Shown one piece after another: positions 2 to 29,596 of a DNA stretch of 64,000 bases. The stretch is taken from positions 1-64,000 of the forward strand of contig JABLXU010000021.1 of the NCBI GenBank assembly GCA_013177805.1, in the 5' to 3' direction. Every line of letters starts with the position of its first letter. Position 1 is the stretch's first letter. The notes beneath the pieces were generated by a model, which did not search any database, was not told where the DNA came from, and saw only the letters and a list, made by a program, of their open reading frames with translations. The translations under genes and the position numbers were made by a program. The stretch comes from Candidatus Omnitrophota bacterium (lineage in GTDB: Bacteria; Hinthialibacterota; Hinthialibacteria; Hinthialibacterales; Hinthialibacteraceae).

Positions 2-1720
2 TACAATAATTACGGGGGAGGGTACGGGTACGGCGGTTCCAGCTTCGGCCAGCGGAGCGGTTTTGGCATGAGGTCTTCCATGAGCGGCTTAGGGGGAATG
101 GGAAGCAGCCGGCGGAGTAGCCGGTATAACACAACCGGCTCCGGTTATAGCACCCCCTCAGCTTCTTCCTCCTCGCGCCGTGGCCGAAGCATGAATTACG
201 GCAATACCTCCGCCGTAGGCGGAGTCGTGCCACAAAGCGCGCCAGGGCAGGGAACGGACCCCCGGCAAACCCAGTCCACCGGATCTTCCGCCAACCGCAA
301 GACCGCGGCGGCCAAAACCGGTCCGGCCGGTTCGGCCACCCCGAGCAGCGCTCCGGGCGGCATTCAAGTGCAAGGCTCGTCGAATATCGATGTTCAAGCC
401 CGCGTTCCCGGCAATCCCGCGCTACCGGTCCGGCCCGGCCAACCCCAGCGGGGGAAACCGGCTCCCCCTAAAAAAGACGAAGTGAAGACACGTCCAACCG
501 CCACATTCTATGTGGATACGCCCAACGCCTCGTTGGTCGTCGAGCAGCCGTTTACTGTATCCGTGGCATTGTCCAACAGTGGGAAACTGGAATATGACAC
601 TTTGGCCTTCGCCTTGTATTTCGATCCTGCCGATCTGATGCCCGTCAGCGGTGTGGATGAAGCCGGTCAGAGAACCCCTTTGACCGCCCTGGCATTCACG
701 GCTTCCCCACCGGAGCCGGCCGCCGGGAATGGCGGAGAGCCGGATGTCTCCGACGAGACGGATTCCGTGCAGCCGGCGGAAAGAACCTCAGGGGAGGAAA
801 AGTCCGGTTCGTTTATCGCCAAGAATCAGGAACGCTATAAGATTATCCAGAACGAAGTGGATGGGAAAAAAGGTCTGATCCGTTTCAAGGCCGAGGTCGT
901 AGGCCAGCCGGCCAAGGATTCCGGCCTCGTGGTCCAGATCCCTTTTAAACCGTTGCGGGTCTCCTCCACCAGTATTTCATTCGTTTTCTCCGATCCGTAT
1001 GATTCCGGCTCCGCCGAGGAAGGAAATTGGACGGCCTTGAGCCTGAAAGGAGCGGATCAGCTGGGTTCGCGGTATATGGAGTCCGACGGCGTGGTGAATC
1101 TCAACCTGAATATATACGAGACTCTGGAAAAGGCCCGGCAAAAGCCGATCGTGAAGGACGTGAAGGGTCAAAGTCTCGAATCTTCCGAGGAAGATTTGTA
1201 CGCCACCCAGATCATCTTGATTCCACGCCAGGAGACAATCGACGTCGGCGACGTGGTGGACGTGGATGTGGTTCTCGAGAATCCGGGCGCGGAACTGATC
1301 GACTCGGTCAGTTTGTTGGCGGCCTACAATCCCCGGGTGTTCGAAGCGGTAGACCTGGACGACTTTTCGCCGGGTGTCAATCTGTCCGACGAGGAGTACC
1401 GCAGCGAGTTCCCCTTTGATTTTCCCATGATCAACCATATCGACACCGAGAAAGGCTTGATCGAATACCGGAAAAAAACGATGAAAAAACCGGTTCGCGC
1501 GGAAGGGATTTTCGCCACCTTCCGGTTGCGCGCGATCCGGCCGACCACCAAAACCACGTTCCGTGTCTTTTTGAACGAGAAAGGGGAGGAACCGACGACC
1601 GGTGTGTTCTACCGTTTCCAAGACCGATTGGGCGATCCCGGCGATCCCTTCGATGGCGTCACCACATGTTCGCTGAGCGTGCGGCCCACCACCGCCTATT
1701 TGAACAAAATGGTGAAATGA
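2..1720 (+). CDS. Cohesin-like domain protein of a pilus/secretion operon (5' partial)
   Basis: The frame is open to the left edge of the window, so the true start lies outside; 572 residues are visible. The first ~70 residues are Gly/Tyr/Ser rich (for example GGGYGYGG), followed by a Pro/Ala/Ser/Gly-rich linker to about residue 160. Two beta-rich segments follow (about 165-335 and 395-550); each has the look of a cohesin or dockerin-binding-type beta sandwich, with phrases such as VDTPNASLVVEQPFTVSVAL and QETIDVGDVVDVDVVLENPG. It is followed after 210 bases by the PilM-PilN fusion gene on the same strand, so it probably belongs to the same pilus/type II secretion operon as a periplasmic or surface subunit. 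The fold assignment is inference from pattern; no signal peptide can be judged because the N-terminus is missing. Confidence 0.6.
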   Translation, partial: YNNYGGGYGYGGSSFGQRSGFGMRSSMSGLGGMGSSRRSSRYNTTGSGYSTPSASSSSRRGRSMNYGNTSAVGGVVPQSAPGQGTDPRQTQSTGSSANRKTAAAKTGPAGSATPSSAPGGIQVQGSSNIDVQARVPGNPALPVRPGQPQRGKPAPPKKDEVKTRPTATFYVDTPNASLVVEQPFTVSVALSNSGKLEYDTLAFALYFDPADLMPVSGVDEAGQRTPLTALAFTASPPEPAAGNGGEPDVSDETDSVQPAERTSGEEKSGSFIAKNQERYKIIQNEVDGKKGLIRFKAEVVGQPAKDSGLVVQIPFKPLRVSSTSISFVFSDPYDSGSAEEGNWTALSLKGADQLGSRYMESDGVVNLNLNIYETLEKARQKPIVKDVKGQSLESSEEDLYATQIILIPRQETIDVGDVVDVDVVLENPGAELIDSVSLLAAYNPRVFEAVDLDDFSPGVNLSDEEYRSEFPFDFPMINHIDTEKGLIEYRKKTMKKPVRAEGIFATFRLRAIRPTTKTTFRVFLNEKGEEPTTGVFYRFQDRLGDPGDPFDGVTTCSLSVRPTTAYLNKMVK

Positions 1721-1939
1721 CGATGAAGGCCTTTATAATTCCGGCCGGATCGTTTTGAATGCTTGACAGGAAGGCATACCGGAGAAGACATACCCGAATT
1801 TTGTGAAGGAAATGCCAGGCTTGAAAATGAAAAAGACTCCCCGCGGGGCCAGGTTTATCCCTTCCCCCTCGGGAGAAGAGTTGATAGAATTCGCAGGTTA
1901 TCGCGGCAGGACGATCACAACTAAGAAGGCATGGGTCTC

Positions 1940-4102
1940 ATGGTGAAGGTACCCGATGTAGTCATTGATATAGGACAACAACAGATCAAACTCCTTCAAA
2001 TCCAAGTCGATAAAAAAGGCGGCGTCACAGTTAAAAAAGCCGGAGTGGAAAGGCTGATGCTTTCCTCCGAAGAAGAATCGGATACCGCCTACCAACGGAT
2101 TCAGGAAACGTTGCCCATTCTCCTGCAGCGCCTGGGCGTCAAGGCCCGCCGGGCGGTCGTCTCGCTTCCGGGACGCTCCGCCTTCACCCGCCGGTTGCGG
2201 GTTCCCGTCGTGCGGGGCCGCCAATTACAGCGCATCATCAAATATGAAGCCCGCCAGCATATTCCGTTTCCCCTGGAACAAGTCAACATGGATTACCAAA
2301 TCACTCCTTCCAGCGGGGATTCCGAAGAATTGGAGGTGAATCTCGTCGCGGTCCGCAGCGAGATTGCTGAATCCTACAGCAAGGTCCTGAAGAAATGCGG
2401 CATCCGCTCTGACATCATCGAGGTAGCCCCTCTTTCTCTCTATAACGCATACGCCGCCTCCAAGTTACGCGACATCGAAGAAGTAACCGCTGTGGTCTGC
2501 ATCGGCGCCTCCAGTACGGATATCGTGATCGAGCAAAACGGGGTGATGCAGTTCATGCGCAGCGCTCCCGTGGCGGGAAATGCGTTGACCACACTGCTGG
2601 CCAAATCGCTGGATCTCCCTCCGGACAAAGCAGAAGACCTGAAAAAGAAACCGGCCGCCGAGTTCAGCAGCGCGAATCCCGGCGTGGCGGCGGAGCAGGT
2701 TTCATCCATCCTGGAGCGGGGATTTGACCGGATCATCACCGAAATCCGCCGGTCCTTTGACTTTTACGTATCGCAACCTGATGCTCAGCCGGTGACCCGG
2801 ATTTTCCTCTGCGGCGGATCGGTCCGGATGGAAGGCGTCTGCGAGTTTTTGGAAGACCGCCTGGGCGTGCCCGTGAGTATTTTCCATGTCCGGGACGTGG
2901 AAGGTTTCGAATACCCCCCCGAATACGCCGATCTGTTGGACAACGAAGCCGTGTTGGCGGGAATGGCCGTGCGGGCGGCCGGCCGGGCGTCCTGCGGGTT
3001 GAGTTTCGCTCCGCCCGCAATCAAACAGAAGTTGGAATTCGAGCGCCGCACCCCCATGTTCAGCGTGATGGCCCTGCTGCTGGCGGCCATGGTGGGGGGG
3101 GCGTTTTATTTCCTCGATCAAATGCTGACCACCACAGCCGAAGCCGTGGACCGCGTGCAGGAAATCGTTCAGCCCACTAAGAAATACGGGCCCGAACTGG
3201 GCCGGGTGCGCGGAGAACAAAACAAGTTTTTGGAACGGTATACCCGGATCAACGAAGTGGCCAACAAACGCGGCCGTTTGACGCGCGTGTACCTGGAAGT
3301 GCAGCGGCTGGTGCCCCAGGATATCTGGCTGAAATCCATCGATGTGGGCAGCGGGAAAATGGAAATCAACGGCCGGGCGTTGAACGACGAGCGCATCGCT
3401 ACGTACATCCAGGAGTTGATGCTCTCCCCCTTCTTCGATAACGAGGTCGTGGTGCTGAAAAGCTCCAACCCGGCCAGCGACATTCCCGAGGGCGGTTCCG
3501 TACAGATGGATTTCGTGATCTCCATCGACCGGTACAACAATCCGACGCCTGAAGAAATCAAGTTCGTGGATGAGTTCCGGAAGCTGACGAAGGAAGGGGA
3601 AGTGTTGCTCACCAAGTTCGAACGCGCCGATCAAACCAATGTGAACGCTCCCACAACTTTGGTGGTGGGAGTGTACCGGCGGGATACGGATCAGGAAAAG
3701 ATCTCCCTGTTCAACATCATTTATTCCTGCCTCTTGGCATCGGGCGATACCGCAGTGCAGACCATCGACGTGCGTTTCCATGACCGCGAGAGCAACTTGG
3801 TGGAACACATCCAGGTTCCCGTGGAGTTGATGAAGAAATACCGGGATAAAACCATCGCGGAGAGCGACTTGGTGACCGGTTTTATCGCCATCACCCCCTC
3901 GCCCAGTCCCGCGCCCACCCCCACTCCCACGCCGGAAAAGGAAGGCGGAGAAGAAGCCACGGGAATGGGCGGGTACGGCATGATGGGCGGGTACGGCATG
4001 ATGGGCGGTTATGGCATGATGGGCGGCGGTGGCATGATGGGCGGCGGCGCGGCACCTCCTGGCGGCGGCGCGGCCGAAAGCGGCTTGGATATCGGGCAAT
4101 GA
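1940..4102 (+). CDS. PilM-PilN fusion protein with Met/Gly-rich tail
   Basis: Inner-membrane platform protein of a type IV pilus or type II secretion machine. Residues ~1-335 match PilM (actin-like ATPase fold: VVIDIGQQQIKLLQIQVD near the start, conserved IKYEARQHIPFPLEQV around 100, FLCGGSVRMEGV near 290). A single membrane helix follows at about 374-394, then a PilN-like periplasmic ferredoxin-fold stretch (WLKSIDVGSGKMEINGRAL). PilM and PilN are normally separate proteins. A Pro/Thr linker leads to a tail of four GGYGMM-type repeats. ATG at 1931 is also possible, but AAGAAGG lies 10 nt before the ATG at 1940. The genes around it (cohesin-like, TPR membrane protein, secretin) support the role. 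The region 545-655 has no clear assignment. Confidence 0.85.
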   Translation: MVKVPDVVIDIGQQQIKLLQIQVDKKGGVTVKKAGVERLMLSSEEESDTAYQRIQETLPILLQRLGVKARRAVVSLPGRSAFTRRLRVPVVRGRQLQRIIKYEARQHIPFPLEQVNMDYQITPSSGDSEELEVNLVAVRSEIAESYSKVLKKCGIRSDIIEVAPLSLYNAYAASKLRDIEEVTAVVCIGASSTDIVIEQNGVMQFMRSAPVAGNALTTLLAKSLDLPPDKAEDLKKKPAAEFSSANPGVAAEQVSSILERGFDRIITEIRRSFDFYVSQPDAQPVTRIFLCGGSVRMEGVCEFLEDRLGVPVSIFHVRDVEGFEYPPEYADLLDNEAVLAGMAVRAAGRASCGLSFAPPAIKQKLEFERRTPMFSVMALLLAAMVGGAFYFLDQMLTTTAEAVDRVQEIVQPTKKYGPELGRVRGEQNKFLERYTRINEVANKRGRLTRVYLEVQRLVPQDIWLKSIDVGSGKMEINGRALNDERIATYIQELMLSPFFDNEVVVLKSSNPASDIPEGGSVQMDFVISIDRYNNPTPEEIKFVDEFRKLTKEGEVLLTKFERADQTNVNAPTTLVVGVYRRDTDQEKISLFNIIYSCLLASGDTAVQTIDVRFHDRESNLVEHIQVPVELMKKYRDKTIAESDLVTGFIAITPSPSPAPTPTPTPEKEGGEEATGMGGYGMMGGYGMMGGYGMMGGGGMMGGGAAPPGGGAAESGLDIGQ
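3965..4036 (+). repeat. Four tandem 18-bp repeats encoding MGGYGM units
   Basis: Four head-to-tail 18-mers start at 3965, 3983, 4001 and 4019. The first two are identical (ATGGGCGGGTACGGCATG), the third and fourth differ at a few bases, and a partial fifth unit follows. They encode Met-Gly-Gly-Tyr/Gly-Gly-Met units at the C-terminus of the PilM-PilN fusion. This is a slippage-prone coding minisatellite, so copy number may vary between strains. Confidence 0.95.
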
Positions 4103-4169: not shown

Positions 4170-5729
4170 TTGGCACTGAAATTGGATCAAGATTCTATCT
4201 TGGAATTTCTCGACCGATACAAAGATCAATTGTTTATCGGCACGCTCGCCTTGATGCTGGTAATTGGGGGCTGGTCGCTGTATCAACGCAGCGCGCTGTC
4301 GGTGGATGATCTCATCCGCGAAGTGACGGAAGAACCCGACCGGGCGGGAAGCGGACCGCGGTCGGAGCGGGTGTCACCGCAGGAAGTCGTGGACAAACTG
4401 GTCGCCAAACGGCCGCCGGATATGTACACCATCACCCGGAATCCCTTCGGTTCCCAGGAAGAACAACTGCGGAAGCGCAACGAGGTGAAAAGCGCCTACG
4501 ACCGCGGCATCGAACTGTTTCAAGCGGGGGATTACGAAGCCGCCATCCAACAGTTCGAACGTGTCATCGCCCTCGACGTGACCGAAACCCGCATTCCCTA
4601 CGCTGTGCTGCCTTCGGAATACAAACGCCGTGCTCAGAGCGAATTTCTCAAACGGAATTTTGACCGCGTGCTGGCCAGCGCGAAGAGCGATCTGCAAGAA
4701 GGAGACCGGCTGGTGAGCACGGGCAAACTGCCCGAAGCAGAAGCGGTCTTTTTGCGGGCGAATAAAAACCTGACCGATGCCATCACCGCCGATCCGGAAG
4801 GCGCGTCGGTGGGCAAGGAAAACCTGGACGCGCTCAAGCAAATGCAATCCCAGGCTTTCAACAAGATGATTGCGGTGCAATCCACGGTCCTCAAGAGTGA
4901 GTTGCAGCAAGGGATCCAACAAGCCCAACTTTTGCTGGGCCAGAACGATCTGATCGCCCTCCTCAAATCCAATTTCAACCTGGTGGCCCTCCAACAACGG
5001 TTGAACGAAGTGGATCCCAACCAGGAATTGATCAAGGCAGCCGAGCGGAACCAAGTCACCGCCCTGAGCCAACAGATTCAAAAACGGCTTGCCGATAGTT
5101 ATGCTGAATTGGTAATTCAGGCGGAAAAGCAATTCGCCGAGGCGCTGGTCCAGAAAGACATGAACAAGTCCAAGGAAGCGATCGCCGCCATGCGCCTGGC
5201 ACTGCAGACCAATCCGCAAGATCCAGAACTGCAGACGAAGATCAACAACGCCGTGATCAAGCGCGCGGAAATGGTGGTGGAGCTCGCGGATGCCTTCATT
5301 GCGCAACAGCAAGCCCTTTTGAACCAGGGGCAGTATGATCAATTCGATGCCCAGGGCAAATTGCGTTTCATGGATGAGCTCAATGCCCTGCGCACCATCG
5401 GCCCGTCCACGGATGCCACCTTGCGCAACCAGGTGGTTGACCGTTTGAAACAAATTCAAAACTTGCGCAAACCGCCGGTGTTGACCCAAGATTATGAGAT
5501 TCAGAGCGTTCAGGAATCGGGACGGGGTATTTTCAAAATCGAAATCCTCGATAAAACCGTCCGTACCGGTCCCCGGAAACGGGTTCTCACCAATATCCGG
5601 GAAGGGGCCAACCGGGGCGACCGGTCTACCGGGATCTATATCAAGAAAGTTGACACGGAGAAGGGCTCTGTTATACTCTCCAAATCTGGTTACTCGGATG
5701 TGGAAGTGAAATTAAGTCCAAGTAATTAA
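4170..5729 (+). CDS. Membrane-anchored TPR protein of the pilus/secretion operon
   Basis: 519 residues. A short cytoplasmic N-terminus is followed by one membrane helix (about 18-38, FIGTLALMLVIGGWSL), a linker, and TPR-like helical repeats from about 105 on (YDRGIELFQAGDYEAAIQQF). Residues ~160-410 are long helices rich in Gln and Ala. The last ~85 residues are beta-rich (ILDKTVRTGPRKRV ... KVDTEKGSVILS) and could be the secretin-contacting domain, comparable in position to PilP or GspC, although sequence resemblance is weak. The start is TTG with GGAG eight nt upstream. The gene is 67 bases after the PilM-PilN fusion and 281 bases before the secretin gene, so it probably links the inner-membrane platform to the secretin. 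That role is inferred from context. Confidence 0.65.
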   Translation: MALKLDQDSILEFLDRYKDQLFIGTLALMLVIGGWSLYQRSALSVDDLIREVTEEPDRAGSGPRSERVSPQEVVDKLVAKRPPDMYTITRNPFGSQEEQLRKRNEVKSAYDRGIELFQAGDYEAAIQQFERVIALDVTETRIPYAVLPSEYKRRAQSEFLKRNFDRVLASAKSDLQEGDRLVSTGKLPEAEAVFLRANKNLTDAITADPEGASVGKENLDALKQMQSQAFNKMIAVQSTVLKSELQQGIQQAQLLLGQNDLIALLKSNFNLVALQQRLNEVDPNQELIKAAERNQVTALSQQIQKRLADSYAELVIQAEKQFAEALVQKDMNKSKEAIAAMRLALQTNPQDPELQTKINNAVIKRAEMVVELADAFIAQQQALLNQGQYDQFDAQGKLRFMDELNALRTIGPSTDATLRNQVVDRLKQIQNLRKPPVLTQDYEIQSVQESGRGIFKIEILDKTVRTGPRKRVLTNIREGANRGDRSTGIYIKKVDTEKGSVILSKSGYSDVEVKLSPSN

Positions 5730-6010: not shown

Positions 6011-9000
6011 ATGTTATCAATTCTTCTGTGTCAGCATCGAGTCAACCTCCGCTCCCTATCTCATTTCCTCTGGATCCTTTGGCTGATGGGAGGACTGATA
6101 GTGGGTTCGGATTTGCCATCTTTTGCGGGCTCGATGGAATTCCGGGTTCTTGGTGGTTTGGTGATGCATACCCAAAGCGGGAAAGCGCCTTCGGTCCGCT
6201 CCCAGACGAATACCTTGTATCAAATGGCGCGTAAGGAAATCCGGGCGGGGAATATCGAGAAGGGCCGATCGCTGTTGCAAGAAATTCTCGCCCTCGACCC
6301 CCTGAACAAAAGGGCCAAGCAGGAGTTGGAGAAACTCGCGAATCAAGACCCCGCCCTCGCCCAAGCCCCGTCGGCCGGGGTAACCCAGGCGATAGAAAGC
6401 CTTTCGGCTAAGGAAATGATCGACGTGGCAATTTCCTCCATGCGGGACGGGGATTATGACAACGCCAAAACCGTCCTGGAAAAAGCCCTGAAACAATCCC
6501 CTAACGAGAAGGAAAAGAAGCAGATTCAATCCTTGTTGGCCACGATCGAAAAAGACCGCCAGCGTACGGAGCAAATCCGGCAGAGTGTTCTCGATTACAA
6601 CCTATCCACTCTCGACAGCCATCTTCAGAAAGCCTCTATTTACCTGGAGAACCAGCAGTTTGACCAAGCGGAAGCCGAGTTGCAAAAAGCCAAACTCATC
6701 GCTCCCGACGACAAGCGCATCGAGCAATTCCTCAATCACATTAACAACCAGCGCAGCAGCGCTCTGAGAACGCAGGCGAAACAAGAACAAGCCGCTCTTG
6801 CCGCCCAGGGGCGCGAGATCCAGATGACCGCTGAGAGCCTCTTCAAGGAAGGCGTGCTTCTGTACCGGCAGGGGCAGGTGATCCAAGCCGTGGATAAATG
6901 GAACCAGGCCTTGGAAATCGCTCCCGGCCATCAGAAAAGCCAGACCTATCTCAACAACACCCGCGTGGAATTTGAACAGGCGGTGGCGGCCCAGGAAGCG
7001 GCCGAAAAACGGGCCATTGAGGAAGCGGATTACGAAAAGAAACTGGATACCCCCATCGTCCAGTACTCTACCGCCGGGGAAAACCTGGATATCAAGGACG
7101 TGCTCAGCACGCTCAGCAAGCTGAGCGGCTTGAACATGGTCATGGGCGAAAACCTGGAAGGGAAAGTCAGTTTCGACGTCAAGGACACCACGATCCGCAA
7201 CGTCTTGAATCTTCTTCAAAAACAATACGGTTTCATTTGGCACCGTGAGAAGGACACGATTTTCGTCGAGCGGGGATTCCAAACCCGGATTTTCCCGCTG
7301 TCCGAAGCGCAGTATAAAACCATCGAAGCTATCCTGACAGATCCCTCCGTGCTGGAAGACTCGTCCAGGAATTTAAAAGCCATTTTGTACGGACCTACCG
7401 AAGAATTTAACGTTCCTGGCAAGCAACTCTTCCTGAACCGGGCCACCCGCTCGCTCGTGGTCACCGATACCCAGGATAATCTTCGCGTGGTGGAAGCGTT
7501 TCTCAAAGAGATGCCGCCCATCGTGGGCACGGCCCAGCAGCCGGTGGAAACACGGACCTACCGGCTGGACCGGGACATCGCCAAAGAGGTATATGAGATC
7601 GTCAAACTGGTACTCTTCAAAGGGCAGGGCGCATATGACATCACCGACTTGCGCCGTCAATTGTACCTGGAGCCCAACTCGAACGTCTTGATCGTGATCG
7701 ATTACCCCGAGAATATTCAGGAAGTTGAAAAAATTCTGGCCAACCAGCAAATCACCCGGGGACTCGAAGCGGGGGATCTGGTGGCCAAGCAATTTCAACT
7801 CACCGATTACGATGATGTGGAAGACACGCCGGAAGCCTACCAGCGGCGCGAAGAATTTGTGACCCACATCACGGATATCATTCAGCAGATGTTGTACGGC
7901 AAGGAAGGCGTGGACGCGGCCCGCCTGCAAGGGCGGATGATCGTCCCCAATCCCGCCCGGGGCACCGTGGACATCGTGGACACCCGGGAAAACATCCGGC
8001 GGGTGGAAGATTACCTGAACAGTGTGAAGGGGGAGGAGACGCAGGATATCCTGATCCAGACCTATCCCATCCGCCACGTGGACGTATTCACAATCTCCGA
8101 CGCTCTGGGATATCTCTTCTTTGATTCCCAGCAATCGACCCGGTCGAACTACTTGAGCCAAAACGCGTTCCAATCGATCGGATCCAGCGAGCAGGGCGAC
8201 ACCGGCGCCGACGCGGGCAACCTGTTCGAGGAAACCACGCGGAACCGGTTCCAATTGTCCGGCGGCGGCGGCAGCACGGACTTGCTGCAGTTCCTGGCCC
8301 TGCGCTTCTATCCCGATGTCAGCACCAACAGCATCGTGCTCTTTACACCAGACCAGGACACCATCAGTCTGGTAAACCGGGTCATTACCACCTTTGACAA
8401 ACCGCAACGGATGATCGAACTGGAGATCCGGACGGTGTCCGCTTCTCTGACCGATTTGCGCTCCATCAATTTTGATTACATGCTGACCGATCCCTTCGTG
8501 GACAAAATCTCTCTCAATCCTGAAAGAATGCAGATGGATATGCAAATGTCCACCGATCAATCGAGCGGCTTTAACATGGGGATTCACACCTTCGGCCGCT
8601 CCCGGTTGGATTTCTTGATGAGTCTGCTTGAATCGACAAAAAGCTTTAACGTCCTGTCCTCACCCAAGGTCCTCTCGATCGCTAACCCCATCGATCCTCC
8701 CTTGGTGTTCGTCGGCCAGCAGATTCCCTACGCGGATAGTGCTCAATTCGATGACCAGGGTGACGATGATCCGACTAACAACCGGCTGGTGATCAACTAC
8801 AACCGGACCTTTGTGGGCAACATGCTGCCGGTCATCCCCTTCATCCTCAACGACGACCATATTTATCTGGAATTGGCCCCGCAGATCATCGAACCCGGGG
8901 AACGGCTTCCGGTCGAAATCACCGGGCAAGTCACCACGGGTGCGGAAATTCCCAACGTTGGACCCTTGCTCTTGAATCAGCAGTACCTGCGCACCAGCAT

Positions 9001-9193
9001 CCGGATGAAAAACGGAACGACGGTGGTTCTGGGTGGATTGATCACGGAGCGGGAAAACGAAACCCAGGATAAGGTGCCGATTCTTTCTAAAATTCCTTTG
9101 CTGGGCAACATGTTTATTGACCGGCGAATCGAGAAACAGAAATCCTCCATTCTGTTCTTCATCACGGCTCGCATTATTGAACCTTCGCTGTAA
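6011..9193 (+). CDS. Type IV pilus/type II secretion secretin with N-terminal TPR region
   Basis: 1060 residues, much longer than a typical PilQ or GspD. An N-terminal hydrophobic segment (~18-38) serves as the signal peptide. Residues ~60-310 are TPR-like repeats (RAGNIEKGRSLLQEILALDP; EGVLLYRQGQVIQAVDKW). A secretin N0/STN-like domain lies near 350-430 (ISSUE-type pattern LDIKDVLSTLSKLSGLNMVM), followed by two or more KH-like N domains (about 510-790). The secretin core fills ~800-1060 with GTTVVLGGLI and VPILSKIPLLGNMF, the family signature close to the C-terminus. It forms the outer-membrane channel for pilus or pseudopilus assembly. It is the last gene of the operon; a perfect terminator follows 28 bases after the stop. 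Confidence 0.92.
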   Translation: MLSILLCQHRVNLRSLSHFLWILWLMGGLIVGSDLPSFAGSMEFRVLGGLVMHTQSGKAPSVRSQTNTLYQMARKEIRAGNIEKGRSLLQEILALDPLNKRAKQELEKLANQDPALAQAPSAGVTQAIESLSAKEMIDVAISSMRDGDYDNAKTVLEKALKQSPNEKEKKQIQSLLATIEKDRQRTEQIRQSVLDYNLSTLDSHLQKASIYLENQQFDQAEAELQKAKLIAPDDKRIEQFLNHINNQRSSALRTQAKQEQAALAAQGREIQMTAESLFKEGVLLYRQGQVIQAVDKWNQALEIAPGHQKSQTYLNNTRVEFEQAVAAQEAAEKRAIEEADYEKKLDTPIVQYSTAGENLDIKDVLSTLSKLSGLNMVMGENLEGKVSFDVKDTTIRNVLNLLQKQYGFIWHREKDTIFVERGFQTRIFPLSEAQYKTIEAILTDPSVLEDSSRNLKAILYGPTEEFNVPGKQLFLNRATRSLVVTDTQDNLRVVEAFLKEMPPIVGTAQQPVETRTYRLDRDIAKEVYEIVKLVLFKGQGAYDITDLRRQLYLEPNSNVLIVIDYPENIQEVEKILANQQITRGLEAGDLVAKQFQLTDYDDVEDTPEAYQRREEFVTHITDIIQQMLYGKEGVDAARLQGRMIVPNPARGTVDIVDTRENIRRVEDYLNSVKGEETQDILIQTYPIRHVDVFTISDALGYLFFDSQQSTRSNYLSQNAFQSIGSSEQGDTGADAGNLFEETTRNRFQLSGGGGSTDLLQFLALRFYPDVSTNSIVLFTPDQDTISLVNRVITTFDKPQRMIELEIRTVSASLTDLRSINFDYMLTDPFVDKISLNPERMQMDMQMSTDQSSGFNMGIHTFGRSRLDFLMSLLESTKSFNVLSSPKVLSIANPIDPPLVFVGQQIPYADSAQFDDQGDDDPTNNRLVINYNRTFVGNMLPVIPFILNDDHIYLELAPQIIEPGERLPVEITGQVTTGAEIPNVGPLLLNQQYLRTSIRMKNGTTVVLGGLITERENETQDKVPILSKIPLLGNMFIDRRIEKQKSSILFFITARIIEPSL

Positions 9194-9368: not shown

Positions 9369-10049
9369 TTACCGGATGAACTTATACCCCATGCGGTGAA
9401 CGGTGATGATATGGCGGGGGGAATCCGGATCGTCTTCGATCTTTTGCCGCAGTTTGGCGACATGGTTATCCACCGTGCGGGTTTGGGGCAGGGAGGTGTA
9501 CCCCCAGACCTCCTTGAGGAACTCCTCCCGCGACAAGGTTTCGCCTTCCCGTTCCACGAAGAGGCGCATCATTTCGAACTCCCGGGGCGAGAGATCGAGG
9601 GGTTTTCCCGCTTTGTATGCCTCATATTTATCGAAAGAAAGCGTGACATCCCCGAAAGAATATTCGTGAACGGCCGAGGGGTGGGTTTGGGTACGGCGCA
9701 GGATGGCTTTGATCCGGGCCAACAGCTCCTGGAGGCTGAAAGGTTTGGTGATATAATCGTCCGCCCCGGATTCCAGACCTTCCACCTTATCGGATTCGGA
9801 CTCCCGGGCGGTCAACATAATAATAGGAGTCCGGGATCCGGCTTCCTTGAGCCGGCGGCACACTTCCATCCCATCCATGCCGGGGAGCATGAGGTCCAGA
9901 ATGATCAGATCGAAGGATTCCTTCAGGGCCAACCGCAGGCCTTCGTTTCCGTTCGCTGTCCCCACTGTTTCGTATTCTTCGAATTCCAGATTATCCTGCA
10001 ACCCCCTCCGCATATCCGGTTCGTCTTCGATGATGAGAATCCGTGTCAT
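9369..10049 (-). CDS. OmpR/PhoB-family response regulator (orphan)
   Basis: 226 residues, the usual length. The receiver domain (1-120) has the acidic pocket IEDE at 7-10, phospho-acceptor Asp52 in LILDLMLPGMDG context, Thr80 and Lys102 (YITKPFS). The C-terminal winged-helix DNA-binding domain (~130-225) has the typical LSPREFEMMRLF, TRTVDNHVAKLRQKI and GYKFIR segments. No histidine kinase gene adjoins it in the window, so its partner is encoded elsewhere. It is divergent from the pilin-like gene at 10224 (174 bases between the start codons), which might be a target; that link is only positional. Confidence 0.93.
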   Translation of the reverse strand: MTRILIIEDEPDMRRGLQDNLEFEEYETVGTANGNEGLRLALKESFDLIILDLMLPGMDGMEVCRRLKEAGSRTPIIMLTARESESDKVEGLESGADDYITKPFSLQELLARIKAILRRTQTHPSAVHEYSFGDVTLSFDKYEAYKAGKPLDLSPREFEMMRLFVEREGETLSREEFLKEVWGYTSLPQTRTVDNHVAKLRQKIEDDPDSPRHIITVHRMGYKFIR

Positions 10050-10223: not shown

Positions 10224-10781
10224 ATGCCGTCCCGTTCGTCGTTCACCTTGATTGAATTGTTGATTGTAACCGCCATCATCGGCATCCTGGTGGCCATCGC
10301 GATCCCGAATCTGTTGCACGCCCAGATCCGCGCCAAGGTCGCCGCCACCCAATCGGATTTGAAAATGCTGGTGGACGCGATGCAGCAATATTACCTCGAT
10401 AACAATTCCTACCACGCGCACCGCGATACCGACAACCAGCAATTCCCCCTGACGACACCGGTTCCCTATTTGAATGGATTTCTGCGGGATCGTTTCCAGG
10501 GCTTGCCGGACATGGCCTTGCGCACTGGCTTCGATTGCTCACGCTCCTTTTATCATTGGATTCCGTACGAAACTCATGCCCACATTTGGGGGGATCCCTG
10601 GCGGCGTTGGGATTCCGTGCTGGACGACGCGCACCGGAAGCAGAGCGGTCTGGTGGATGGTTGGGGGCCGGCGGGCATCCGGGGCGGCCCCCGGTATGAT
10701 CCCACTAATGGTTTAATCAGCCAGGGCGGATTCTTCCGCTTGGTACCTAAGGGAACCAAGGTGCATTTGTATACGCCGTGA
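10224..10781 (+). CDS. Type IV pilin/pseudopilin-like protein
   Basis: 185 residues with a class III signal: a very short leader (MPSRSS) followed by FTLIELLIVTAIIGILVAIA, the hydrophobic helix of pilins and GspG-type pseudopilins, with the conserved Glu at +5. Residue -1 before the mature Phe is Ser, where Gly is the rule. After the helix comes AQIRAKVAATQSDLKMLVDA and YYLDNNSYHA, a pattern common in pseudopilin-like proteins of several uncultured phyla. The C-terminal part is Trp/Gly/Pro rich with no known domain. It is likely assembled or exported by the pilus/secretion machine encoded at the left of the window. Confidence 0.85.
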   Translation: MPSRSSFTLIELLIVTAIIGILVAIAIPNLLHAQIRAKVAATQSDLKMLVDAMQQYYLDNNSYHAHRDTDNQQFPLTTPVPYLNGFLRDRFQGLPDMALRTGFDCSRSFYHWIPYETHAHIWGDPWRRWDSVLDDAHRKQSGLVDGWGPAGIRGGPRYDPTNGLISQGGFFRLVPKGTKVHLYTP

Positions 10782-26117: not shown

Positions 26118-27191
26118 GTGGGGAAATCCCGCTCCAATATCAACATAAAGATTCGGAATAGGCAGATTGCTTTTCTAAAGAGGTTGATGGTTTTGATTTG
26201 GAAACACGCCTTCTTTTTGAAATCGGGAGTTTATCTGGGAATCTGTGTGATCCTTGCGGGGGCTGGCGCGGCCGGATGTATGAAAACCGGTGGCTCCATT
26301 CAAGCCAACTATACAAAGGTGAGCCTGGTTGAAGAGGCTGATCGTTTGTTTGAAAAAGGTCAATACCAAACCGCTCTCTTGAAATATTCCGGGTACGTGC
26401 TTTCGCCCTATCCCAACAAGGATAAAAGAGATCTCCCCTACGCGCGGTATCAAATGGCGCTGTGCCAGTTCCTATTGGGCCAATACACCGATGCCCGGAT
26501 GACTCTGTCAACCTTGATGAAAGAAAATCCTGGCCAATACCGTCAGGAAGCAGACGCCCTGATGGCGAAAATTAATGAAAAAATCCAAGCCCGCGACCAA
26601 ATCCTGGCTCAAAAACAGGATGAACTCCAACAGGAAATTCAAAAAGTGGAACAATTCGCCGCCCAGAATCCCAACAGTGCGGAATATCATTTCCAACTGG
26701 GCGACTTGTACTGGAAAGCGGGACGGACTACGGACGCCGTCAAAGAATACGAAAAAGCCGCCAAACTCGATCCTTCTTACCTGGAAAAAAGCACCCTCCG
26801 CCAACGGGTCCGGGTGACCAGTGCCGGTGAATTTACAGTGCGCGATTCCATCCCCCTGGCGGCCCCCCAAAGCCCGGTGCGGGTGACTGGGGCGCGGATG
26901 CAAATTGTCCAGCGCGAAAATTGGTTGGGTAAAAAAGAAACCATCCGCCTCAGCGGCCAAGTGGAAAATGTAGGCCTCTACGATGTGACCAACGTCCAAG
27001 TAGAAGTCACCATTTATGATTTCCATGATACCGTACAGGGCGTTCAATTGGCCAAAATCGGAACCCTCCGGGCTGGCCAAAAACGTCCCTTTTCTGTTCT
27101 CTTCGACGACTACAGCGAACTGGCGATTGATATCAACAAATACACGACGCAGGTCTTTTATGATGAACCCCGGAATGCGGTAAAAGGGTGA
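26118..27191 (+). CDS. TPR lipoprotein with C-terminal FxLYD-like domain
   Basis: 357 residues from a GTG start. A hydrophobic segment ends in GAGAAGC at Cys54, a plausible lipobox; starting at the internal ATG at 26187 would place this Cys at residue 31, a normal lipoprotein signal. TPR-like repeats cover ~65-145 (ADRLFEKGQYQTALLKYSGY) and ~190-225 (YHFQLGDLYWKAGRTTDAVK), separated by a Gln/Glu-rich coiled coil. The C-terminal ~255-345 is a beta domain of FxLYD type (LSGQVENVGLYDVTNVQVEV). It stands directly before two short secretin-like genes, so it may act as a pilotin or assembly factor for them. Confidence 0.65.
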   Translation: MGKSRSNINIKIRNRQIAFLKRLMVLIWKHAFFLKSGVYLGICVILAGAGAAGCMKTGGSIQANYTKVSLVEEADRLFEKGQYQTALLKYSGYVLSPYPNKDKRDLPYARYQMALCQFLLGQYTDARMTLSTLMKENPGQYRQEADALMAKINEKIQARDQILAQKQDELQQEIQKVEQFAAQNPNSAEYHFQLGDLYWKAGRTTDAVKEYEKAAKLDPSYLEKSTLRQRVRVTSAGEFTVRDSIPLAAPQSPVRVTGARMQIVQRENWLGKKETIRLSGQVENVGLYDVTNVQVEVTIYDFHDTVQGVQLAKIGTLRAGQKRPFSVLFDDYSELAIDINKYTTQVFYDEPRNAVKG

Positions 27192-27263
27192 AGGGGCATG
27201 GGAATACCACTCTGTTTCTTTTTCTTTAATTGCGGACGGTTTGGGGCCAATTCGAGTAGTGAG

Positions 27264-28382
27264 ATGAGAATGATGAAGAAATCGTTGCCAATGCGCTGTT
27301 TGGCAGGAGGGATCCTTCTAGGGATAGCCTTTGGTCTGATCCCAGTCAGCGGTGCCTTTGCTCAAGATGCGCCCATCACCCGGGATGAAAAAGGCGAACT
27401 GACCAAGGAACAATTGAATCAAATCATCGAACAAAAGAAAAACGCGAAGGAAGGCCCATATCAGATCCTGCTGCAAGTCATTATTTTCGAAGTATTTCTG
27501 CGTAACGAAGACAAGATCGGTTTCTTGTATGATATTCTGGGCGAAGTGGGAGAATTCCGCGGGACCAACCTGGCCGGTGATCCGGTGGTCGAAAGTGATT
27601 TAAGTGTCTTAGGCAGCGGCAACCGGAACGAACTCCTGCCCGCTGGCGCGAACATCGTGACCAACATTTTTGAAGGCGACGAGGGCCGGGTGGAGGCGAT
27701 TTTCCAAGCCTTGGCCGAAGACCAAAAAGTCACGGTGCACGCCAATCCCAATCTATTGACCCTGGAAGGCGTCCCCGCCCGTCTCGAGAACGTGGAGGAT
27801 GTCCCGTTCCTGGAACGGCAGGTGGTGGGCGAGAGCGAAACCTTCACCACCGAGTTCCGCAACACCGGCGTTTCCCTGGAAATGACACCCACGGTCGAAT
27901 TCGGCGAGATGGATGTCCTGCGCGAAAGGCCGTTTATCTGGCTGGATGTCACGGCCAACCTTTCCAATGTCTCCCGGTACCGTGAAGAAGAAGGATTCAC
28001 CCAGCCGATCCTGGATAGCCGGAATTATCACAGCCGCCTGTGCGTGCGCGCCGACCAGCGGGTGATCATCGGCAGCCATTACCGCGATCAACAGACCAAC
28101 CAGATGCGGGGGATACCCATCCTCAAAGATATTCCCGTCATGGGGCGGCTGTTCAAGGGCACGAGTGACACCAACCGGATTTCGCAACTGTACGTCATTA
28201 TCAAACCCACCTTGCTGGATCTATACGGTCAACCGGTCGCTGGGGAGTCGGCGGGCGATCCCGAACTCGATGCCAAGAAAATCCGGGAACTGTTGGATGA
28301 GCGATCCAAGGAAATCAATACCAAAACCAGCCCCTTCGAAAATTTCCGGGAACTCTTCATCGACCGGACTTCACCGCAATGA
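27264..28382 (+). CDS. Short secretin-like protein (type II/III secretion family), first of a pair
   Basis: 372 residues when started at the ATG that opens a normal signal peptide (MRMMKKSLPMRCLAGG..., ending SGAFAQ); a frame with 22 more residues exists but its spacing to AAGGGG is too short. Residues ~50-140 are an N-terminal region without recognisable N0/N1 domains. The secretin core follows: HANPNLLTLEGVPARLE, FRNTGVSLEMTPTVEF, RVIIGSHYRDQQTNQ and the signature GIPILKDIPVMGRLF, then ISQLYVIIKPTLLD. It probably forms or lines an outer-membrane ring. The unusual point is its short length and its pairing with another such gene. Confidence 0.78.
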   Translation: MRMMKKSLPMRCLAGGILLGIAFGLIPVSGAFAQDAPITRDEKGELTKEQLNQIIEQKKNAKEGPYQILLQVIIFEVFLRNEDKIGFLYDILGEVGEFRGTNLAGDPVVESDLSVLGSGNRNELLPAGANIVTNIFEGDEGRVEAIFQALAEDQKVTVHANPNLLTLEGVPARLENVEDVPFLERQVVGESETFTTEFRNTGVSLEMTPTVEFGEMDVLRERPFIWLDVTANLSNVSRYREEEGFTQPILDSRNYHSRLCVRADQRVIIGSHYRDQQTNQMRGIPILKDIPVMGRLFKGTSDTNRISQLYVIIKPTLLDLYGQPVAGESAGDPELDAKKIRELLDERSKEINTKTSPFENFRELFIDRTSPQ

Positions 28383-28417
28383 CAAATGGATTGTTGGAAG
28401 AGAGCGAGTGAGAGACG

Positions 28418-29596
28418 ATGAGCTTACGAATCCGGAACCTGGATAAATGCCGCCACCCCGGACCCCGCTGGATCCCTTGGCTTCTCCTGGGATTGGGCGG
28501 ATTCATCCCGGCGGCCTGGGGACAAGGCCCCCGCCCGGTCATCGAAATCTCGGCGGATATCTACGAATACCGGCTGGACGGCGAAAAACAGCTGGGCATT
28601 TTCTACCAATACAACCGCCAATCCGGCTCCATTCAGAACAGCGACATTTTCTTGCCGGGGAGCGAAAACGTAAAAGAAAAGGCCATTGGCGCCCTCGATA
28701 TCTCAGGCAGTTTCGCCAAACTTTCCTACGGCACCATCGACTACAACATTAAAACCGCCATTGAAGAAGGGCGGGCGACCGTGATCAGCAACCAACGGCT
28801 GATCACCGCCGATGGCGAAACCGCCAACATCACCGCCGGTGAATCGGTCCCCATCACGGTGCTCTCGATGATGGGCAATATCACCAAACTGCAGACCCAA
28901 TACCGCCCTGCGGGTATTAAACTGATCGTCACGCCCCGCATCTTCCGGGATGATTTGATCATCATGAACCTTGAAATCGAATCCAGCGAAATTGCCCGGA
29001 TCACCACCTTCGATCGCGGCGACCGGAAACGCTATGAACTGCCCGTCATTACCAAGCGGAATATCAAAACGGTCGTCTGCGTGCCATCTTCGCAAAAACT
29101 GTATATCGGCGGCCTCTACACGGACAGTTCGGGTGACATGACCCGCAAGGTTCCTATCGTGGGGGATTTGCCCGGTATCGGCTTCTTCCTGCGGGGTTTC
29201 AACAAGAAACGCCGTTTGTCCGAGACGATTTTCCACATCACCCCAGTCATCCGGCTTCCCGGCGAGGGCATTGAGGTTGAGTCGGCCGTGTTCGAGGAAC
29301 TGCTGCAACCCAATAACACCCAGGAACCAATCAAATCTCCCCCCGGGCCAAATCCCACGGTCAGCCATGGGGGAGACGCGGATGCCGCAGCGGAATCCAC
29401 TGATAATCAACCGGCGGATTTCACCATAGAATCCGCTTCACCTACACCGGATTATCCTTCCACCTCGAATCCGGCGGCCGCCGGAGATTCATTCGCGGCC
29501 CAGGAGCCGCCAACTGCCCAAACTGCTTCCCGGACCAAGAGTCCGCCGCAATCCAACCGCGGTTCGGCCATCAATAAATGGCGTTTCAACAATTGA
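28418..29596 (+). CDS. Short secretin-like protein, second of a pair
   Basis: 392 residues. Signal peptide at the N-terminus (WLLLGLGGFIPAAWGQ region). Secretin core features are ATVISNQRLITADGETANI, YRPAGIKLIVTPRIF, KLYIGGLYTDSSGD and the signature KVPIVGDLPGIGFFL, then ETIFHITPVIRL. A Pro/Ser/Ala-rich tail of about 90 residues follows. It lacks the large periplasmic N domains of PilQ/GspD. It starts 35 bases after the preceding secretin-like gene and differs clearly from it in sequence, so the two might build a mixed ring. Confidence 0.78.
   Translation: MSLRIRNLDKCRHPGPRWIPWLLLGLGGFIPAAWGQGPRPVIEISADIYEYRLDGEKQLGIFYQYNRQSGSIQNSDIFLPGSENVKEKAIGALDISGSFAKLSYGTIDYNIKTAIEEGRATVISNQRLITADGETANITAGESVPITVLSMMGNITKLQTQYRPAGIKLIVTPRIFRDDLIIMNLEIESSEIARITTFDRGDRKRYELPVITKRNIKTVVCVPSSQKLYIGGLYTDSSGDMTRKVPIVGDLPGIGFFLRGFNKKRRLSETIFHITPVIRLPGEGIEVESAVFEELLQPNNTQEPIKSPPGPNPTVSHGGDADAAAESTDNQPADFTIESASPTPDYPSTSNPAAAGDSFAAQEPPTAQTASRTKSPPQSNRGSAINKWRFNN

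Follow-up and report, generated by a model that had tools for sequence, protein, structure and literature searches.

A fused PilM-PilN protein with an additional domain and a Met/Gly/Tyr-rich tail, encoded beside cohesin-domain and TPR-secretin genes in a Candidatus Omnitrophota bacterium

A natural fusion of PilM and PilN, extended by a further domain, a Pro/Thr linker and a Met/Gly/Tyr-rich tail, is encoded near the start of the window, i.e. the whole stretch of 64,000 nucleotides that was analysed. The gene stands between that of a cohesin-domain protein and those of a TPR protein and a TPR-secretin (Table 1). The fusion is best read as a base protein in the inner membrane, part of a trans-envelope machine with a secretin, of the type IV filament kind. 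The tail would serve as a sticky periplasmic tether; the probability of this joint reading is put at about 0.55. Fusion of this kind is already known, and the new elements are the extra domain, the tail and the cohesin gene cluster. Among the matches listed in a literature search, no publication dealt with a Met/Gly tail on PilM or with a cohesin protein beside a pilus secretin, which is no proof of absence. The window corresponds to contig C14 of the source genome (G000) from base 1. The source assembly is 5.58 Mb in size, with a completeness of 98.28 and a contamination of 5.2.

Table 1. Positions of the fusion, its parts and the neighbouring genes in the window
Feature	Position	Strand	Basis or remark
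Cohesin-domain protein, Gly/Tyr/Ser-rich N-terminal region	2..1720	+	Pfam; 5′ end lost at contig edge
Gly/Tyr-rich stretch, after a hydrophobic start in relatives	2..200	+	at best 18/30 residues M/G/Y
Fused PilM-PilN carrying domain X (predicted periplasmic), a Pro/Thr linker and the Met/Gly/Tyr tail	1940..4102	+	720 aa
PilM (actin-like) domain	1964..2887	+	Pfam PilM_2 E=6.8e-39, residues 12-319 of 723
SFAP, at the position of the PilN N-terminal docking peptide	3002..3013	+	alignment, Pro invariant
Single membrane helix, C-terminus outside (predicted)	3059..3115	+	hydropathy, flanking charges
PilN domain	3296..3463	+	Pfam PilN E=4.7e-10, residues 456-511 of 723
Domain X, extra periplasmic domain, predicted alpha-beta-beta-alpha-beta-beta	3548..3841	+	AlphaFold2; no sequence family
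Pro/Thr linker	about 3892..3936	+	sequence; conserved in families f1 and f2
Met/Gly/Tyr-rich tail	3965..4099	+	18-bp units at 3965-4044
TPR protein, third gene after cohesin gene and fusion	4170..5729	+	519 aa; TPR_2 E=1.6e-7; conserved position
TPR-secretin	6011..9193	+	1060 aa; Secretin E=6e-32, Secretin_N, TPRs

The open reading frame of the fusion spans 1931-4102, giving 723 aa when counted from the first ATG. The ATG at 1940, already chosen in an earlier note on this DNA, is the better start, as the aligned relatives mostly begin with MAK, and it yields 720 aa. The PilM domain, single membrane helix, PilN domain, Pro/Thr linker and Met/Gly/Tyr tail described in that note are all present, and the occurrence of a PilM domain, one helix and a PilN domain in one reading frame defines the protein as a fused PilMN. 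In profile searches the PilM domain also matched the PilM chains of PDB 3jc8, 5eou and 2ych, and the PilN domain matched the PilN of 3jc8 (E=2.1e-7). Comparison by hhalign with four genes located 3′ of separate pilM in the class gave a probability of 93.8 for the segment from helix to linker and of 90.6 for the PilN part. The only hydrophobic segment (residues 377-395 of 723) is preceded by KQKLEFERR, and the tail should therefore be outside.

Twelve fusions were aligned, including that of the window, to which they are 28-66% identical. The fusion of G011 was excluded, as part of its ORF does not align; at L042 and L011 (G011) it is the middle of the fusion that does not align, with the frame open, perhaps owing to shifted frames or to divergence. 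Throughout the alignment, PilM, helix, PilN and domain X share one frame in 11 relatives. An assembly artefact was rejected on this ground, and the frame error that the earlier note regarded as fatal to a fusion has left no sign and is unlikely.

The fusion point reads SFAP in the window, NFLP in three aligned members of family f4, and NLLP, SLLP or DFLP in the six distant fusions whose printed end reaches so far. The PilN-place proteins of the class (n=4) start with INLLQ, VNLLP or INLIQ. The motif at the fusion point is presumably the PilN N-terminal docking peptide. The earlier note suggested that the fusion fixes the ratio of PilM to PilN, and a PilN-start peptide kept in cis at the junction fits a 1:1 ratio. 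Its statement that the two are separate proteins holds less generally, since fusion is known in kind from GspL and from other bacteria.

Fused PilMN is widespread and merits a dedicated survey. When 386 genomes were searched with a profile, at least 265 had a match at E≤1e-20. Of the best 17 loci outside the class, some of which share one family, one was separate and 16 were of fused length (514-753 aa from stop to stop). A tree built from 35 PilM domains unites the 13 rows of the class in one clade (100/99), which is sister to the fused PilMN of genomes G142 and G279 (98/95). The class and the other fused rows are set apart from five separate PilM (93/86), with the exception of a paralogue from the source genome (C7), which falls outside the fused rows on a long branch. 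Judged by this sequence kinship, the fusion is older than the class and would belong to a lineage of naturally fused PilM-PilN found well beyond it.

The sister loci share the order of fusion, small ORF and TPR-secretin (1228 or 1419 aa) in the 3′ direction; a TPR-secretin neighbour is found in the window, G142 and G279. The kinship extends to the domain level only. Their fusions, at 557 and 591 aa from stop to stop, are too short for domain X plus tail and lack a Met/Gly/Tyr tail, and their immediate upstream neighbours are PHP and EamA genes instead of cohesin. None of the best 17 loci outside the class (0/17) ends in such a tail; the fusion of G153 contains a Met/Gly/Pro-rich stretch, which is internal. 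Domain X, the tail and the cluster of activator, cohesin, fusion, third gene and secretin thus appear specific to the class as far as seen.

The best NCBIfam match of the window protein is the Amuc_1101 family (NF045709; 232.6 bits, E=1.1e-68, covering positions 8-492 of the 608 in the model), with a score far below the curated cut-off of 650, which was exceeded in 0/15 genomes. The model was matched in 16/16 fused genomes outside the class, again with 0/16 over the cut-off. It also matches in 8/14 control genomes; a match alone is therefore not specific, and only better scores suggest kinship. The gene following the fusion in G349 and G184 matches the Amuc_1100 or GspM models, below their cut-offs. 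The Akkermansia cluster Amuc_1098-1102 also includes a predicted type II/III secretion protein, Amuc_1098 (PMC5332112). The cohesin and TPR proteins of the window match no Amuc family at E≤0.1.

PulL/GspL is described as a natural PilM-PilN fusion in PMC10191384, PMC4471445 and PMC3815138, and the likeness to the window protein consists of PilM, membrane helix and PilN in one chain. The protein could thus simply be the GspL of a type II secretion system. In favour of this, GspD is the NCBIfam model with the best score for the secretin (170.6 bits, although its cut-off is 351), and there is a prepilin-like ORF 1 kb past the secretin. This identity is very unlikely. NCBIfam places the Amuc_1101 family and PilM first, and the plain GspL reading was rejected because no GspL model matched the fusion at E≤0.1 in Pfam or NCBIfam. 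The fusion also differs from GspL by the extra domain and the tail. No match to the T2SSE motor ATPase was found on contig C14, and no GspE, GspF or pseudopilin is seen among the five clustered genes. ATPase, secretin and (by eye) pseudopilin genes occur together on other contigs of the source genome. Fusion and elaboration at the base of type IV filament machines would here go beyond what is seen in GspL.

The extra domain, here termed domain X, was missed in the earlier note. It comprises about 100 residues (about 537-634 of 720) between PilN and the linker. An AlphaFold2 model of the domain alone, built on the single sequence of the window, has a mean pLDDT of 68.9 and a pTM of 0.63; a first model from helix to linker had a mean pLDDT of 43.5 and was kept out of the fold search. 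The domain of the window matches no Pfam family at E≤5, and a Pfam search with 12 copies gave seven families, each in one member only. The best Z in the fold search was 7.4, as is usual for models without a clear match, and the matches were unspecific; Foldseek returned no match at E≤0.001.

The periplasmic domains of PilN, PilO, GspL and GspM are ferredoxin-like (PMC3815138, PMC4471445). The best 50 fold matches of domain X include no row for any of these four proteins, which is uninformative either way. In the ferredoxin-like domains of PilN, PilO, GspL and GspM, the elements follow one another in the order predicted for domain X. The predicted order is thus compatible with PilO/GspM, and domain X may, as a hypothesis, be a substitute for PilO. 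Domain X was also tried as a second PilN, a PilO or a PilP, and as a relative of four PilO/GspM-place genes from other fused loci; the profile comparisons were silent in every case. Four genomes with separate pil loci supplied the PilN, PilO and PilP comparison sets, which were picked by gene position. The PilO-place proteins are confirmed as PilO by Pfam; the three PilN-place proteins and the one PilP-place protein that were tested have no Pfam family at E≤0.01.

A search with the fusion gave a match at E≤0.001 in 41/41 genomes (the source genome and 40 others), with 22-33% identity for the matches outside the class that were among the best listed. The long fusion is present in 13 of the 14 class members (G000-G013). 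The exception, G009, has a PilM gene that stands alone, with PilN-place and PilO-like ORFs after it, and a partial PilM-like match on another contig. A contig search for related loci added two partial matches (26-27% over residues 129-264), which were left unused. Separate PilM was recognised in 5/14 class genomes (G009-G013; that of G010 is in pieces). None was seen in G000-G008, where the other PilM matches are partial and unclassified. PilO matches at E 1.7e-15 or better are confined to G009, G010, G012 and G013, with weaker ones in nine others. The type IVa arrangement, in which PilM and PilN are separate, differs from the fusion, where both domains are recognised in one chain; G009, G012 and G013 have another locus with genes for separate PilM, for a protein that is PilN-like by its position, and for PilO, as does G010 with its PilM in pieces. 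The type IVa order of separate pilM and pilN, then pilO, pilP and pilQ, is absent at the fusion loci. The source genome encodes PilT-like ATPases on contigs C8 and C33, and the C33 copy is closer (57-59%) than the C8 copy (51-52%) to the PilT-like genes located next to separate pilM. Other fused or PilM-like long ORFs of this genome are found on C7 and C56.

A sigma-54 activator gene lies upstream in 12/12 loci of relatives, with 51-91% identity to the copy of G001; of three activators analysed with Pfam, that of G010 has no HTH. The order of activator, cohesin, fusion, third gene and secretin on one strand holds in 11 of these 12 loci. In the G011 locus the activator, the cohesin gene and the fusion were seen, together with a piece of secretin that matches weakly; the ORF calls between are unreliable. 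Gaps between the cluster genes are below 500 bases except in G002, where an extra cohesin gene intervenes. TPR_2 is found in 9/12 third genes; those of f4 (462-478 aa) gave no BLAST match to the TPR protein of the window. The latter is probably membrane-anchored, judging by a hydrophobic stretch seen by eye near residues 20-36, which is below the hydropathy threshold. Its identity as PilP was considered and dropped, as the profile comparison was silent; a search with the PilP family was uninformative, its controls being silent. The clustered genes include none that could be recognised as a motor gene or as a homologue of PilO or PilP. A scan for sigma-54 promoters revealed no convincing site recurring across relatives.

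The tail contains a tandem array at 3965-4044 (period 18, 4.4 copies, 91% matches, score 118), the sole array scoring ≥50 in the 64-kb window. The earlier note called the 18-bp repeats exact, which is correct for the two units at 3965 and 3983 and incorrect for units three to five: the third has two synonymous base differences, the fourth replaces Tyr by Gly and the fifth is decayed. Compared with synonymous resampling of this peptide, the DNA identity at period 18 is only slightly raised. The longest identity run was 26, where the resampled sequences averaged 13.9 (3.4% of 5000 resamplings reached it), and the total identity was 79 against 72.8 (reached in 2.6% of 5000). The 55-residue stretch after the linker holds nine Met in the window, and the tails of relatives hold 2-11.

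Tails were found in 11 of the 13 class genomes with a fusion. The survey of related genomes suggested in the earlier note therefore bears the tail out, and its concern that tails might be lacking in all relatives does not apply. Nine tails are of the Met/Gly/Tyr type (G000-G008) and two of a Met/Gly type without Tyr (G010, G012). The tail is missing in G013 and G011 and is thus not essential to the family. The M+G+Y fraction of the tail is 0.47-0.76 in f1 and 0.53-0.58 in f2, as compared with 0.10-0.13 in the first 600 residues of the same proteins (9/9 f1/f2 genomes).

Such a tail could have arisen through slippage in GGN/ATG repeats, combined with a habit of the lineage of forming Gly-rich stretches, and be tolerated without any particular function. 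The near-identical 18-bp units, the short DNA repeats with different periods (about 9 to 30 bp) in the tails of relatives, the two fusions lacking a tail and the Gly/Met-rich stretches in other envelope-type proteins (loci L089 and L091) are in keeping with this origin. It is nevertheless somewhat unlikely, as Met, Gly and Tyr are kept in 9/9 genomes of two families while the DNA units differ, the eight relatives among these being 40-66% identical to the protein of the window, and as the third 18-bp unit has changed only synonymously. A role in binding Cu(I)/Ag(I), or as an oxidisable methionine buffer of the periplasm, would suit the nine Met on the probable periplasmic side. This role is highly improbable, however, because the f2 tails have just 2-3 Met, but five Tyr, and the tail of the window contains no His and no Cys.

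The best candidate to be held by a sticky tether is the Gly/Tyr-rich N-terminal region of the upstream cohesin-domain protein. The earlier note pointed to a Gly/Tyr-rich N-terminus of this protein; the region is indeed Gly/Tyr-rich, but the window opens at the contig edge and the true N-terminus is thus cut off. The cohesin domain, which went unnoticed in that note, was found with Pfam (E=5.2e-8, residues 407-517, 33.6 bits); the genome-wide search scored the same stretch at 22.5 bits, below its cut-off of 24.1. Cohesin was matched at E≤0.01 in 14/14 aligned neighbour proteins, and their profile matched solved cohesins weakly in two places (best E 2.1e-4 and 0.0086). By sequence, the neighbour shares the cohesin domain with the cellulosomal cohesins. 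The cohesin proteins of relatives have a hydrophobic start (by eye; the hydropathy threshold was passed in 4/6 tested) followed by a Gly/Tyr-rich stretch, which in f1 and f2 is rich in Gly, Tyr, Ser and Arg. Judging by these relatives, the protein of the window is secreted.

Tail and Gly/Tyr-rich partner adjoin in 9/9 genomes of two families. Tyr makes up 0.06-0.14 of the N-terminal region in the neighbouring cohesin proteins of f1/f2 and 0.01 in those of f4/f5; in f4 a tail without Tyr goes with a partner region of about 0.01 Tyr. A tail with Tyr therefore seems to accompany a cohesin protein rich in Gly and Tyr, which fits a tail-partner pair and constitutes a single phylogenetic contrast between clades. 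In G001 the tail has ten Met and residues 26-165 of the partner have none, so that the composition is not matched residue for residue. A contact between tail and partner is plausible, on circumstantial evidence. At least 15 M/G/Y within 30 residues are reached in 24/309 ORFs (11 fusions, eight cohesin neighbours and five others); the 309 ORFs come from 23 stretches around pilus loci, of which L089 was picked for its tail pattern, and the figure is not a genome-wide rate. The pair offers a natural, testable case of low-complexity contacts in the periplasm.

A device for surface display has also been considered, in which the secretin complex holds the cohesin protein, the cohesin binds secreted proteins that bear dockerins, and the tail anchors it on the way out. 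Cohesin in 14/14 neighbours and dockerin matches, together with cohesin matches, in 14/14 class genomes (G000-G013; six dockerin matches in the source genome) are in its favour. The same genomes contain other cohesin matches, many of the dockerin E-values are modest, and cohesin modules outside cellulosomes do not necessarily bind dockerin, which makes a display device unlikely.

Computation supports the architecture, the single frame, the kinship of the fusions, the gene cluster, the persistent composition of the tail and the low complexity common to tail and neighbour; a working machine, its ATPase contact, the topology, the role of domain X and the function and partner of the tail are inferred. 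The fusion as an inner-membrane base protein would operate as follows. In the cytoplasm, PilM would engage an assembly ATPase, and the docking peptide in cis would keep PilM and PilN always at 1:1. The helix would carry PilN and domain X into the periplasm, where they may build an inner-membrane ring meeting the neighbouring TPR protein and the TPR-secretin. The flexible Pro/Thr linker would end in the Met/Gly/Tyr-rich tail, most likely a sticky tether. The fused complex may serve the PilT-like ATPases of the source genome, although the other fused or PilM-like long ORFs on C7 and C56 weaken this assignment. A more far-reaching version, for the nine genomes of two families, has the fused and tailed complex replace the base of a retractile pilus, with domain X for PilO, the TPR protein for PilP, the tail holding the Gly/Tyr-rich cohesin protein through low-complexity contacts and the machine displaying dockerin-bearing proteins on the surface. 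This combination is quite improbable; if true, it would place PilM, PilN and PilO in one chain.

Several further ORFs were recorded. In G002, a second cohesin gene without a Gly/Tyr-rich stretch (L034:6248-7939) adjoins the Gly/Tyr-rich copy. In G005, a protein of 313 aa encoded outside the cluster (L089:5099-6040) is Met/Gly/Tyr-rich right after a signal-like start and has no Pfam family at E≤0.01. On contig C54 of the source genome, a pseudopilin-like protein (by eye; L091:7822-8889) has a Gly-rich C-terminal end of the type GRGGMGGMGG. The prepilin-like ORF of the window, located at 10224-10778, has an N-terminal methylation motif, and an OmpR-type regulator (9369-10049) lies between it and the secretin on the opposite strand. 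Two successive short secretin-like ORFs (394 and 392 aa, with Secretin matches) are found at 27198-29596, on this contig without T2SSE match, and are preceded by an ORF at 26118-27191 with a TPR-like look.
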